A stretch of 64,000 nucleotides of DNA from Haladaptatus paucihalophilus DX253 (lineage in GTDB: Archaea > Halobacteriota > Halobacteria > Halobacteriales > Haladaptataceae), in NCBI RefSeq assembly GCF_000376445.1, contig NZ_AQXI01000005.1:1-64000 (forward strand), read 5' to 3'. This document shows, one piece after another, positions 3,404 to 24,198 of this stretch. Position 1 is the first letter of the stretch, and every line of letters begins with the position of its first letter. The notes below the pieces were generated by a model, which was not told the origin of the DNA, ran no database searches, and saw only the letters and a program-made list of their open reading frames with translations. The translations under genes were made by a program, and so were the position numbers.

Positions 3404-6376
3404 ATGTCATCCTCTGGACCATCAGTCACGCTTCAAGAGTTCTGTACGGGACTTGGGTATAGCGACTCGCCCGGATTTTATATGATCTCAGAACCGGTAT
3501 CAACCCTCCCTACTTCAGTTGAAAATTCTAAGGAAAAATTAGGTGTTGATGCAGTCTATGGGACTCATCAAGCACATGGTCAACGATTCAAACCAATTGT
3601 GTATTTTAAGAAATATTCTGATGAAGATGGTGAGTCTCTGAAGCAGATATACAACAACGTGTGGAATGAGGGACAAGCAACACTCCTAATTGTTGTCTTT
3701 CCCGATCGAGCAAAGATCTACAACTGTACTCGAAAGCCAATTGAAGACCGGCAGGAAGATATTGATGAGTACCAAAGACTTCTTGACACGCTCGACCTCT
3801 ATGAGAAGAGTCTCGAAGAGACTCCTGATGTTGATTCGTATAAACGTCCAAATATTGAGAGTCGCAATTTCTGGCGAGAGCGGCGTGGTGAGTTCGATCA
3901 AGCAAACCGGGTTGATCAGCACTTACTGACTAACTTAGAGAATTTAAAGAATAATTTAACTGATGAACTATCGATAGGATACACAAACAATCTAATTATT
4001 AGATCGCTCTTCCTTCTTTATCTCCAAGATAGAGATATCATCCAAGACTCATTCTACCAGACGAGATTTAATTGCCGAGGATATAGAGAGGTTCTAGAAA
4101 ACAAAGAAGATACATACGAACTATTTGACGAAGTTAAAAGTCGTCTTAATGGGGATATCTTTCAGTATGATGAGAACGAATACGGCTCAGTAACTTCAGA
4201 ACACTTGTTAATAATCAGCCGGTTCCTGAACGGAATCAATCTCAGAACAGGCCAAACCCGATTATTCCCTTATCGTTTTGATCTTATCCCGATTGAACTA
4301 ATCAGCAGCATCTACGAGCACTTCGTTGGGGAGTCTGACACTGGTGGAACGTACTATACTCGTCCTGAGATGGCCGACTATATGATTGACGAGTTGCTGA
4401 GCGAAGACCTTCATGAGCACCAACGAATTGTTGACCCTACGTGCGGTTCCGGTGTATTTCTTGTAAATGCATTTAGTAGGCTCGTAGAGCATGAAAAGCG
4501 AAATTCAGACGCAGTTGATCTCGAAACACTTACTGAGTTTCTCACGCACCGTCTACATGGATATGACAATAATCATGAAGCTGTACAAATCACCACGTTT
4601 AGTCTCTATCTCAAACTTTTAGAATATGTTGACGACTCTATTATTTGGGATGATGGATTTGAACTTCCATCTCTTATCGGGAACTCGATCCATTGTGATG
4701 ACTTCTTTGAAGTTTCTGAAAGCGAGAAATTCGACTTAATAATCGGAAATCCTCCTTGGGGCTCGCTTTCTCAGATTCGTTCTTCAGCAAAGGAGTACTT
4801 AGACGATTCTGGACATTCTATTGGAAACAATGAGTCTGCACAAGCATTTATGTGGAAGGCTTACGAGAATTTGGATCCTGAAGGGGAAGTTTGCTTTGCT
4901 GTCCCCGCTAGAAGTATACTCTTTCATAGACAATCTACAGCCGTTCAATTTAGAGAAAAGTTTTTTGAACAAGCATCTGTCGACACAATAGCGAATCTGG
5001 CTCCTCTTCGGAGAACACTATTTGAGAACGCAACGAACCCAGCAGCGATTGTCACGTTCGGAAGAAAGGCGCTCAATGGACGAGATTCGATCCGATATCT
5101 TACTCCAAAGACATTTGATGTAGGTATTCTCCGTTCGATTCCCGTTGATGCAGACCACGACGTGAAGTTTCTTTCTTCGCATTACCAGAACTTTGAGTAC
5201 GTCTGGAAAACTGCGATGTGGGGTGGTAGTGCGGACCTCAATCTTATGATGAAACTAGAATCGTTGCCCTCCATCAATGATCTAGTAGACAGCCGTGAGT
5301 GGCTAATCGGAAATGGATTTGAAGCAGGCTCTTCGACATATGAGCAAACCCATTCACCGGAATTAGCTGAGTTGCCTCATCTTCGGACTAGCCAAGTTGA
5401 GCCATATTATGTCCCAGAAGACGGCTTAGTAGAATATGGCGCCGAACCATATTTTAAGCATCCACGTGACTTATCACTATACGAACCACCAGTCATAACA
5501 GTCCGAGCGACGGCCACACGTCGCAATAGAGAACCGGGTGCATCAAGAGGAATAAAATCAGCATTCCATGAACACTCAGTCTCATACCGGTCAAGGATTG
5601 TTGGGATTGTTGGCTTGGAAACGGATCATGATATTCTCCGAATCCTGAATCTAGTTCTTAACTCGTCACTTGCCCAGTACTGGTTATTCCTTTCTACTGT
5701 CGGGTGGGGTATTGCTAGACCAACACTCCGGCAGGAAGAAATCCTCTCTGTTCCTCTTCCGCTAGACAATCTAATCGAAAGGAAGGAGGAATTATTATCT
5801 ATCGACAGTAGAATTAGAGAACTAATCGAAAATAGTGTTCGAGACGAGCGTTACAAGGAGCATATCGAACAATTAGATAACATTCTTTTCGAGTGTTACG
5901 ACCTTTCAGAGATCGAAAAGAAGCTCATCGAATCGAGAGTAAGCACCTCGATTGATTTCTACCATGAACGAAATGACTCGAAAGCAGTAGAGGCCGCAAA
6001 TGATGAACTCCTTCGTCAGTACGGAGAAATCATCTGCGATAACGTAAACAAATTCCTTGAGTTTAGCGATGTTTCTTTGCAGCCGATCATCTACTCTTCA
6101 TCAAACCTCATCAAGCCTCTTAATCTAATTACTTTACAGTTATCCGAAGGGGAGAGTCAGCCAGAGTTAGTCGATCGTAACATTGTCCTTGAAGAAAAAC
6201 TCCAAGCCCTTGATTCAGCAGAATCAAATAATTCGCTGTATCAACGTCGAATTGTCGAAATATACCAGGAAAACTCTATTCATATAATCAAACCTAATGA
6301 AGTGAGATTTTGGAGCGTTGCTGCGGCGATTAATGACGCACCCGAAATTGTAGGTGAGTTGCTTGACCGAGCATAA
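3404..6376 (+). CDS. Large N6-adenine DNA methyltransferase of a type II (Eco57I/type IIG-like) restriction system
   Basis: A 990-residue protein with SAM motif I (DPTCGSGVFL, about residue 342) and the catalytic NPPW (about 448), defining a gamma-class N6-adenine methylase. Some 300 residues precede the methylase core and about 400 follow; the C-terminal half probably contains target recognition and helical spacer regions. I see no clear D...ExK nuclease motif in the N-terminal part. It overlaps the next gene, which carries such a motif, so cleavage and methylation appear split over two proteins. The gene is clearly more AT-rich than flanking DNA, a sign of recent transfer. BREX PglX or DISARM methylases are alternative relatives, but their partner genes are absent. 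Confidence 0.8.
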   Translation: MSSSGPSVTLQEFCTGLGYSDSPGFYMISEPVSTLPTSVENSKEKLGVDAVYGTHQAHGQRFKPIVYFKKYSDEDGESLKQIYNNVWNEGQATLLIVVFPDRAKIYNCTRKPIEDRQEDIDEYQRLLDTLDLYEKSLEETPDVDSYKRPNIESRNFWRERRGEFDQANRVDQHLLTNLENLKNNLTDELSIGYTNNLIIRSLFLLYLQDRDIIQDSFYQTRFNCRGYREVLENKEDTYELFDEVKSRLNGDIFQYDENEYGSVTSEHLLIISRFLNGINLRTGQTRLFPYRFDLIPIELISSIYEHFVGESDTGGTYYTRPEMADYMIDELLSEDLHEHQRIVDPTCGSGVFLVNAFSRLVEHEKRNSDAVDLETLTEFLTHRLHGYDNNHEAVQITTFSLYLKLLEYVDDSIIWDDGFELPSLIGNSIHCDDFFEVSESEKFDLIIGNPPWGSLSQIRSSAKEYLDDSGHSIGNNESAQAFMWKAYENLDPEGEVCFAVPARSILFHRQSTAVQFREKFFEQASVDTIANLAPLRRTLFENATNPAAIVTFGRKALNGRDSIRYLTPKTFDVGILRSIPVDADHDVKFLSSHYQNFEYVWKTAMWGGSADLNLMMKLESLPSINDLVDSREWLIGNGFEAGSSTYEQTHSPELAELPHLRTSQVEPYYVPEDGLVEYGAEPYFKHPRDLSLYEPPVITVRATATRRNREPGASRGIKSAFHEHSVSYRSRIVGIVGLETDHDILRILNLVLNSSLAQYWLFLSTVGWGIARPTLRQEEILSVPLPLDNLIERKEELLSIDSRIRELIENSVRDERYKEHIEQLDNILFECYDLSEIEKKLIESRVSTSIDFYHERNDSKAVEAANDELLRQYGEIICDNVNKFLEFSDVSLQPIIYSSSNLIKPLNLITLQLSEGESQPELVDRNIVLEEKLQALDSAESNNSLYQRRIVEIYQENSIHIIKPNEVRFWSVAAAINDAPEIVGELLDRA

Positions 6377-21807: not shown

Positions 21808-21815
21808 GAGGCCAT

Positions 21816-21837
21816 ATTAAGGTTTGAAGGCCTTAAT
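21816..21837. promoter_or_regulatory. Inverted repeat before the winged-helix regulator gene
   Basis: ATTAAGG (21816-21822) and CCTTAAT (21831-21837) form a 7+7 bp inverted repeat with an 8-base spacer, 9-30 bases upstream of the regulator's ATG. It overlaps the likely TATA element on the minus strand. The position suits an autorepression operator. Confidence 0.45.
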
Positions 21838-21839
21838 AC

Positions 21840-23487
21840 TTATCCACTATAAAGCCTTACTAAGCGAAACGACTCACTAGTCATGGGACCAAAAAATGGG
21901 CGCGACTACAGGAATGGGAGACAGGAACAAGAATTATCAGAAAACAGATGAAGCGAAGAGTGGAAATTGAAGATGGTAACGAGAAGGCTGGCACCCTGCC
22001 AGTGCACCGCAGTGGGCGCCCGGGAAATATAACGAGAAAGATAGGATACTGAGGGTGCGCAAAAGTGGGCACCCCACCGAGTGCGAGCAGAGTCATGGGC
22101 GAGATTAGCACCCGCGACGAGAAGGGACAACAGAGTAGAGTGGGGACAGTCCACCCAGCGCGAGCACCCAGAATGATCACCAGAGATGAGACAGTGGGAC
22201 AGTCAGGCTAGCGCCGAGAACAGCGACAGAAAATGAGAGCACTAGCGCGAAGAAAACACGACCGACAAGCACGGGAAAAGATAGTCAGAAATCAGAGAAA
22301 AGAGAGGAGTGCGCGAGTGGGGCAGGTGGGGCAACGCGATCAACGACGGGAGACATCCAGCAGGAATTAGGGTCAACAACACTCACGACCACTAGTAATC
22401 TGTCAGATTTCGGGAACATATGGGACACAGGCGAAGAAGCACCGATGGCCCACGACATCGAGGGGGACAGTCAGCGAGAGCGCTGGCGTCCAGGACAGCA
22501 CGAAGACCGTGGCGATCACGGCAGGCGAGGAGGAGGGAATCACAACCTGAGAAACACGGGCAACATCAGCAGAGCCGACAATGGGAGTGGAACCACACTG
22601 GAATTCTTGCAAAACATCGCGAACAGCAGCACCCCAGAGACAGAGTGATGACCACGAGAAAGAACGTAGCACGAGCATGCAGGACAGTCACTGGGCGTGA
22701 CAAAGCCGGACAGTCCACTTCTGGCCGGACAGGTCCGACAGAACGCTGTGCGTCTAGTTTGGGGGTGCCACCTCTGCACCCGAACAGAGGGGGTACCGAC
22801 GAGCGACACATCTCTACTCACAGCCTGAGCAATGGCCGGGTGCCACCACCACCACGCTTCATCTGGGTTCCGATGTGACGACCTGATCTGGGTGCCGACC
22901 CGAGCGCACCAGTGGGGTGCCAACGTGGGCGACACACCACAGTTTCAGTGAGCGCACCACGCGAGGAGAGGCGACAACAGCGGACAGCACCGCCAGCACG
23001 AGGGACTGTCCACCAGCGACAGACTGCGGTGTCCGCCGGCCACCGACAAAGGGGACTGTCAAATCAGGCGACCAGTACGCCGAGCCTCTAGCTAGTTGCG
23101 GCGTCGACGGCGCATTGCACCGAGTATGAACCATCACGCACAGCAGGGCCGACTGTCCACCGGGCGAGACATTGAACTCACTGAGCTCGAGCAGCACTAG
23201 ACTGTCAGCCCAGCACGACCCAAAGGGGACTGTCACCCAGAGCGAAGCAAGATGGACCGGAGAGGGACGAGGACTGCTGAAGACGGCCAAATTACTCCGG
23301 AAATGTGGTGTCCTCTCTCCGAGAAAACGGACTGTCCACCGGCTAGGACAATCTGACTGTCCCACCCGCGTTAGCAGTGGCGGTCTGGTCGGTCGAGGCG
23401 ATCTGCTGCCGTGCGTTCGGTTCGGCACATTCATTCGCTTGCCATCGCGCATCATTCGCCACCCCCAACGTTGAACTAAACACAGAG
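21840..23487 (+). other. Long gene-free, T-poor region with repeated palindromes
   Basis: No convincing gene occurs on either strand for about 1.6 kb. The plus strand is very poor in T; 60-base lines at 22201, 22261 and 22501 hold only 4, 5 and 4 T. That is why long but non-protein-like frames appear (Arg/Gly/His-rich, no domain). Repeats of GACWGTC (12 copies) and of GGTGCC/GGCACC run through it. It lies between the secretion operon's regulator and a lipoprotein. Candidate roles are a transfer origin, partition site or long non-coding RNA; none is proven. Confidence 0.7.
22145..23361 (+). repeat. Twelve dispersed GACWGTC palindromes, central base switching from A to T
   Basis: GACAGTC occurs at 22145, 22198, 22466, 22683 and 22709. 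GACTGTC occurs at 23004, 23054, 23151, 23200, 23228, 23330 and 23355. Many copies have GGG before and CCACC after, in the same direction in both halves. So the flanks keep orientation while the central base flips. The changeover falls at about 22.75-23.0 kb, where GGTGCC motifs cluster (22765, 22839, 22890, 22916). Confidence 0.75.
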
Positions 23488-24198
23488 ATGACCACCAGTA
23501 TGCATCGCTCCCTCCCTATGCTCGGACTTGTCCTACTCGTTGTCCTCGCAGGCTGTCTCGGCAGTCTTGGACTCGGCGGTAGTAGCGACGATCCCACAAC
23601 CACACCGAGCAGCACAGAGCCGACGCAGACGGCAACCAACACGCCGTCAATGACGACAACCGAGGCAACAGTCACAACCACTTCACCGACCACAACAGCC
23701 ACGCAGACAGCCAGCACAACCACAGCAGCAACAACGTCACCGAACAGCACGGCAACCCAAGCAACGACAGTACCGACACAGACCACCGCACGAATCGACG
23801 CACCGAGCGGCAGCCAGCGCTTCGAAGCACGGGTGACGAAAATCGTCGATCCGACAACCATCAAAATTGAACGCAACGGCAAGACCCAGACGATTGATCT
23901 GATCGGTGTACGCGTCCCGAAGAGTGGTCTGTACCACAAACGAGCGCTCCAGACTACCAAAGCACAGCTTGAGTACAGCACCGTCACACTCGTCACAGAC
24001 CCACAAGTGGGAAGCAGCAGTGACGGCCATCCACAAATGTACGTCTATACGGGGGAGTGGCTGTACAATACGCAGTTGCTCCGATCAGGCTATGCACGAG
24101 TGGCAGACGGGGAGTTCAGTAAACGGGCGGAGTTTGAGCGAAAGCAGCAAGAGGCCAAGCACGGCGGCTATGGCCTGTGGAAGAACACGAGCGCGTGA
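23488..24198 (+). CDS. Lipoprotein with staphylococcal-nuclease-like (thermonuclease) domain, catalytic residues missing
   Basis: 236 aa from the ATG at 23488 (an ATG at 23500 is equally possible). Signal plus lipobox LAGC is followed by a Thr/Ser-rich wall-spanning linker of about 70 residues. The C-terminal domain (about 110-235) matches SNase: 'ARVTKIVDPTTIKIERNGK', 'IDLIGVRVPK', 'NTQLLRSGYARV'. The conserved Glu region after 'VRVPK' and the Arg of the usual 'DRYGRxLAYV' segment are replaced ('DGHPQMYVY'), so nuclease activity is doubtful. It may bind DNA at the cell surface. Confidence 0.8.
   Translation: MTTSMHRSLPMLGLVLLVVLAGCLGSLGLGGSSDDPTTTPSSTEPTQTATNTPSMTTTEATVTTTSPTTTATQTASTTTAATTSPNSTATQATTVPTQTTARIDAPSGSQRFEARVTKIVDPTTIKIERNGKTQTIDLIGVRVPKSGLYHKRALQTTKAQLEYSTVTLVTDPQVGSSSDGHPQMYVYTGEWLYNTQLLRSGYARVADGEFSKRAEFERKQQEAKHGGYGLWKNTSA

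Follow-up and report, generated by a model that had tools for sequence, protein, structure and literature searches.

A conserved non-coding element with interleaved arrays of complementary motifs adjoins conjugation-type genes of haloarchaea

The window analysed here, a stretch of 64,000 nucleotides from Haladaptatus paucihalophilus DX253, carries genes for VirB4-like and TraG/VirD4-like ATPases, the latter lying tail-to-tail with the gene of a winged-helix (wHTH) regulator (Table 1). The predicted structure of this regulator (pLDDT 77) found its best Foldseek matches in the MarR family. Between the wHTH gene and that of an SNase-fold protein, which is also readable from a GTG at 23377, lies a 1.5-kb non-coding element that is real, conserved and not due to chance. 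Elsewhere in the window, an Eco57I-type large N6-adenine DNA methylase is encoded at 3404-6376, about 15 kb to the left of the element, and the plasmid cargo at 26192-56832 comprises genes for cytochrome c maturation, cytochrome bd and haem-copper oxidase together with rhodanese, TauE exporter and metallo-beta-lactamase-fold genes, so that it looks like a respiratory or sulfur-metabolism island.

Table 1. Positions of the element, its motifs and the adjoining genes within the window
Feature	Start	End	Strand	Remark
VirB4-like ATPase	14129	16243	+	weak AAA_10 match; homologues at matching places in 12 loci
TraG/VirD4-like coupling ATPase	18265	21327	+	Pfam TraG-D_C, TrwB_AAD_bind
Winged-helix regulator, MarR/PadR-like fold, divergent from the element	21331	21807	-	Pfam wHTH matches
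Inverted repeat, candidate wHTH operator	21817	21836		TTAAGG-TTTGAAGG-CCTTAA (N8 spacer)
AT-rich TATA-like box between wHTH gene and element	21832	21843		putative divergent promoter
Proposed U-poor non-coding RNA	21866	23420	+	approximate extent; T step at left end; last motif ends at 23361
b motif 1, GGCACC	21990	21995	+	
b motif 2, GGCACC	22068	22073	+	
a motif, GACAGTC	22145	22151	+	
a motif, GACAGTC	22198	22204	+	GTGGGACAGTCAG, exact 13-nt complement of 23353-23365
a motif, GACAGTC	22466	22472	+	
a motif, GACAGTC	22683	22689	+	
a motif, GACAGTC	22709	22715	+	final one ahead of the turning point
B motif, GGTGCC	22764	22769	+	
B motif, GGTGCC	22839	22844	+	
B motif, GGTGCC	22891	22896	+	
B motif, GGTGCC	22916	22921	+	
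A motif, GACTGTC	23004	23010	+	
A motif, GACTGTC	23054	23060	+	
A motif, GACTGTC	23151	23157	+	
A motif, GACTGTC	23200	23206	+	
A motif, GACTGTC	23228	23234	+	
A motif, GACTGTC	23330	23336	+	
A motif, GACTGTC	23355	23361	+	last of the array
Lipoprotein-like SNase-fold protein, directly downstream	23500	24198	+	Pfam SNase 3.5e-06

A first-pass annotation of this DNA had reported twelve GACWGTC palindromes in the interval, and all of them were found where it had placed them, five A-centred copies on the left and seven T-centred copies on the right. In the composition-matched comparison that it had proposed, 1000 dinucleotide shuffles of the region 21808-23497 (1690 nt) contained on average 0.39 such sites and at most four. 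K-mer enrichment over 20 loci yielded the complementary pairs GACAGTC/GACTGTC and GGCACCC/GGGTGCC, so that two complementary motif pairs are distinguished, a (GACAGTC) with A (GACTGTC) and b (GGCACCCCA) with B (TGGGGTGCC). When their order was analysed with the letter code b = GGCACC, a = GACAGTC, B = GGTGCC and A = GACTGTC, a fixed interleaved order b-a-B-A emerged, nearly all loci spelling bb-aaaaa-BBBB-AAAAAA, apart from a small number of b copies that stray to the extreme right end. The segment CATCATTCGSCACCCCCAACGTTGAACTAA at 23438-23490, just ahead of the SNase gene, is highly conserved, with a b-like GGCACCCCC in some relatives. Over 37 loci, a single left-right split of a and A is broken by 5 of 412 motifs, and the unique sites comprise 155 a and no A on the left versus 211 A and two a on the right. 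The change of orientation noticed earlier near 22.75 kb was also found in the window, where GGCACC is confined to the left and GGTGCC to the right. The gaps between motifs cluster at 25.8, 50.9, 75.6, 98.9 and 125.2 nt, a quantisation of about 25 nt, and the gap vector length is 0.64 near 25 nt versus 0.10 at 10.5; thus, no 10.5-bp helical phasing was detected in the gaps of the 37 loci.

The interval had also been described as free of genes, and no credible gene was found in it. Open reading frames of 152 and 198 aa do occur within the region, since T is rare and they therefore stay open, which would be the point in favour of a degraded coding region or of chance composition. Against coding, substitutions by codon position were near uniform versus two of three homologues (41/32/30 and 45/40/37) and 72/59/38 versus the third, a periodicity that is not consistent, and 1-nt indels were present in two of the three comparisons. 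The degraded coding region that the first-pass annotation had named as its own refuting case was therefore not upheld by the homologues, and the region is non-coding; contradicted also by the shuffle counts and by an anatomy kept in 37 loci, the degraded-coding or chance reading has a negligible probability.

The element occurs in at least 37 well-resolved loci of the genera Haladaptatus, Natrinema and Halocatena, which belong to three archaeal families, and the suggested comparison with related plasmids thus found it recurrent rather than missing from homologues. All nine Haladaptatus genomes carry it: a DNA search located the region in seven of the eight others, and the eighth, G003, has an array as well. 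A Haladaptatus genome often has several copies, which lie for the most part on contigs of plasmid size and occasionally on the chromosome, as on the chromosome-sized contigs G006:C1 and G002:C1. Two copies of the element region on G006:C1, L022 and L023, near 1.648 and 2.200 Mb, share hits and motif spacing. A scan of 392 genomes of the order with the spaced-repeat pattern revealed more arrays, both in Haladaptatus and in a single genus from another family, which was taken as Natrinema through DNA similarity to L032, and a Natrinema zhouii plasmid carries the element. A search with the TraG-like family led to an array on a plasmid of Halocatena halophila (listed under the name Actinarchaeum), and two further elements with the b-a-B-A order and spacing were found in another Halocatena genome. 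In L088, L232 and L235, whose DNA has no detectable resemblance to that of the window, the anatomy is kept. As the Halocatena elements cannot be aligned and yet retain the same order and spacing, it is the order and the grid that are conserved and not the linker sequence.

Outside these genera, TraG relatives in Halorubrum, Haloarcula and Halococcus had no arrays downstream. A T-poor stretch follows the TraG relatives of Halorubrum in L096, L099 and L102, and where such a stretch follows TraG in some relatives from these three genera, it is probably acidic coding sequence. Scattered GGACTGTC is plentiful in the genome (158 copies, the reversed pattern having 63), but apart from the two elements no array was seen there. 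A viral origin was considered and discarded, the array pattern giving, among the matches listed, almost only single chance-like matches in viral contigs; of the viral contigs among them, L118 alone had two GGACAGTC-pair matches, which are separated by 745 nt. No record of the phage collection was similar to the element.

The proposed link to a conjugation-type operon was supported by the gene neighbourhood. Of about 40 loci, 26 have a member of the TraG/VirD4-like family close to the element and 14 an SNase-fold protein, and both VirB4-like proteins and proteins with multiple membrane spans are recurrent neighbours. The element, the wHTH gene and a multi-membrane-span protein are also present in L024, L029, L066 and L069, where no TraG gene was found nearby; these loci are possibly mobilisable or reduced forms. 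Neither the Pfam matches of 30 ORFs of the window nor those recurring neighbours that were examined included a relaxase, and no ParA/ParM-like neighbour was recognised in Pfam scans of the genes examined. The most constant neighbour is the wHTH protein, with a homologue at the same position in 27 of about 40 loci. Arrays that adjoin so constant a small DNA-binding protein and are mostly plasmid-borne could represent a partition centromere or stability locus bound by the wHTH or another protein. This reading is very improbable in view of the copies on chromosome-sized contigs, the lack of a ParA-like gene among the neighbours examined and a likely wHTH operator that differs in sequence from the arrays. 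The form TTAAGG-N8-CCTTAA is retained in W, L014, L022 and L026, and in the window subtype this repeat in the wHTH promoter is probably the operator of the wHTH. As judged from this operator, the wHTH would probably regulate itself, and perhaps also the element, rather than bind GACWGTC; the earlier idea that the regulator encoded from 21331 binds the palindromes thus gained no support.

The base composition of the element changes abruptly at its left boundary. Just beyond the TATA-like box, plus-strand T falls from 0.27 to 0.13 with no drop in A, in 24 of 24 loci. T makes up 14% of the whole region and 11% of its motif-free left half, which agrees with the earlier description of a T-poor interval; nevertheless, the depletion is mostly a trait of the left half (0.10-0.15 on the left versus 0.13-0.25 on the right across loci). 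In finer detail, the T fraction is 0.10-0.15 between the left end of the element and its last a motif, 0.13-0.20 over the B array and the first part of the A array, and close to 0.25 past the end. Avoidance of U runs was rejected as the cause, since TT shows no particular depletion (odds 0.85) and T runs are no fewer than expected. In homologues, a TATA-like block is often present about 37-41 nt ahead of a conserved CCCGA or ACCGA. The block also stands approximately where the promoter of a leaderless wHTH mRNA, transcribed in the opposite direction, would be expected, so that a two-way promoter is suggested, although the box may serve the wHTH gene alone.

The sequences flanking the motifs gave two different answers. 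Those of GACWGTC (155 left and 211 right sites) match on the same strand (+0.55 bits versus -0.72 when mirrored), and A is therefore not simply a turned round, whereas those of GGCACC/GGTGCC are mirrored (+1.76 versus -6.0 bits), by which their complementarity reaches nine bases. Hence, the claim that the flanks keep one direction applies to the former motif and not to the latter. Together, the T step, the same-strand a/A flanks and the mirrored b/B flanks favour a single-stranded agent, either RNA or ssDNA. Strand bias and complementary arrays would fit ssDNA equally, for instance a transferred or displaced strand that folds into a single-strand origin or a protein-loading site during transfer, and the mating pili of archaea are believed to carry ssDNA (PMC9905601). 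Such an element is improbable, since the T loss starts at a promoter-like box and no relaxase or Rep gene was recognised alongside in the scans done.

Mirrored b/B flanks are also what one double-stranded site in two orientations would give, and a double-stranded cis-acting transfer locus has to be weighed, acting either like clt or as a site of directional loading. The TraG-like ATPase, a partner or some other protein of the plasmid would bind arrays of short sites that point one way up to about 22.75 kb and the other way beyond it, and would start relaxase-free DNA transfer. Short oriented repeats do adjoin the coupling ATPase, the motifs have the same sequence in all genera with no compensating changes, no relaxase can be recognised on archaeal conjugative plasmids (PMC9905601) and clt acts through 8-bp repeats (PMC4170104). 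On the other hand, the a/A flanks keep one strand, the spacing has no helical phasing, the order b-a-B-A is not a mirror image and some loci have no TraG nearby, while it would be left unexplained why one strand loses T from a promoter-like box onward. Among the three readings that the first-pass annotation had offered, namely a transfer origin, a centromere and a structured long RNA, the last fits best, because of the T step at the promoter-like box, the strand-specific a/A flanks and the missing 10.5-bp phasing.

A conventionally folded RNA was not supported. No compensatory variation was found, the complementarity of flanks being 3.53 within loci versus 3.54 between loci, and variants of the motifs did not correspond to one another inside a locus (p 0.40 and 0.95). 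Specific cognate pairs of individual a and A copies were rejected, since stretches of 13-16 bp exist but complementarity within a locus is no better than between loci, as were local hairpins around the motifs, for which flank covariation is absent. A consensus fold of the core (28 sequences) was weak and not convincing. Folding z-scores were mostly modest (-0.4 for the window and about -4 for two relatives), with no consistently unusual stability at full length or by half. Rfam provided no family match, its only hit, SNORD17 with an E of 0.87, falling short of the threshold and lying within the wHTH gene. Given the lack of compensation, the weak folding and the invariant words, the double-stranded transfer locus, although unlikely, retains about a quarter of the probability.

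On balance, the region probably, if by a small measure, encodes a long non-coding RNA that is poor in U, has arrays able to pair in the order of a pseudoknot and would act with the archaeal conjugation apparatus, a reading drawn from sequence. To the motif content, order, spacing, composition step, conservation and gene context that are observed, it adds transcription, pairing, protein binding and a role in transfer. The RNA, of about 1.4-1.6 kb, would be transcribed rightward from the divergent promoter shared with the wHTH gene and controlled by the wHTH. Its 5' half would be U-poor and bear the b and a arrays, and their complements B and A would occupy the 3' half. Numerous helices of 7-9 bp could form on a flexible 25-nt grid, between b (GGCACCCCA) and B (TGGGGTGCC) and likewise between a (GGACAGUCC) and A (GGACUGUCC). 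With the order b-a-B-A, the b:B and a:A sets would cross, resembling a giant pseudoknot, without zipping into one hairpin, and U-poor linkers would limit mispairing. In the window, the 18-nt stretches at 22892-22909 and 23411-23428 are 89% complementary, which would link the B array to the 3' end. Because the motifs show no compensated drift and are identical across three families, a protein probably also reads them. The resulting RNP would work with the archaeal type IV secretion/conjugation machinery encoded next to it, possibly as a scaffold for the TraG-like ATPase or as a regulator of transfer. More tentatively, and short of what we would call probable, the element may stand for a new class of long archaeal conjugation-associated RNA, in which interleaved complementary words of 7-9 nt on a 25-nt grid build a woven, pseudoknot-ordered scaffold or molecule linker without conventional local hairpins and act with the T4SS.

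How archaea choose and begin conjugative DNA transfer without recognisable relaxases is an open question (PMC9905601). The element described here is a constant non-coding feature of a haloarchaeal transfer region. Like the oriT of T4SS plasmids, it is non-coding and lies within the transfer region; unlike these, it has no relaxase gene recognised in the scans done, and a typical oriT differs from it in size and array layout. In the type III toxin-antitoxin system ToxIN, a repeated pseudoknot-forming RNA precedes a nuclease gene. In contrast to ToxI, which consists of one tandem direct repeat, the present element has complementary motifs with unrelated linkers; tandem direct repeats before a ToxN-type gene are absent, and the nuclease downstream is a lipoprotein-like SNase in only 14 of about 40 loci. 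The Streptomyces clt locus contains 8-bp TRS repeats that are recognised by a DNA-translocating ATPase, with no classical T4SS-type relaxase step (PMC4170104). An array of short repeats beside a translocase gene is common to both. However, clt has one type of 8-bp repeat and the FtsK-like TraB, whereas here two complementary pairs in an interleaved fixed order occupy a 25-nt grid over 1.4 kb with strand-specific T depletion, and the neighbour matches TraG-D_C and TrwB_AAD_bind, as in the TraG/VirD4 type. GOLLD, ROOL and OLE are long bacterial RNAs that form RNA-RNA complexes (PMC12286853), and a long RNA is likewise proposed here, from a promoter-like box and a T step. Those RNAs were found by conserved secondary structure with covariation, unlike the present element, in which covariation was not found and which matches no Rfam family. 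As the first-pass annotation had surmised, the literature searched describes nothing similar, in agreement with Rfam and the phage collection, and the element, which could function in the manner of clt or of the large ornate RNAs but lacks a defining feature of each, is so far an undescribed one. If it is an RNA, it would represent a large RNA class defined by a grammar of words and their spacing instead of conserved stems, a class that covariation-based searches would miss.
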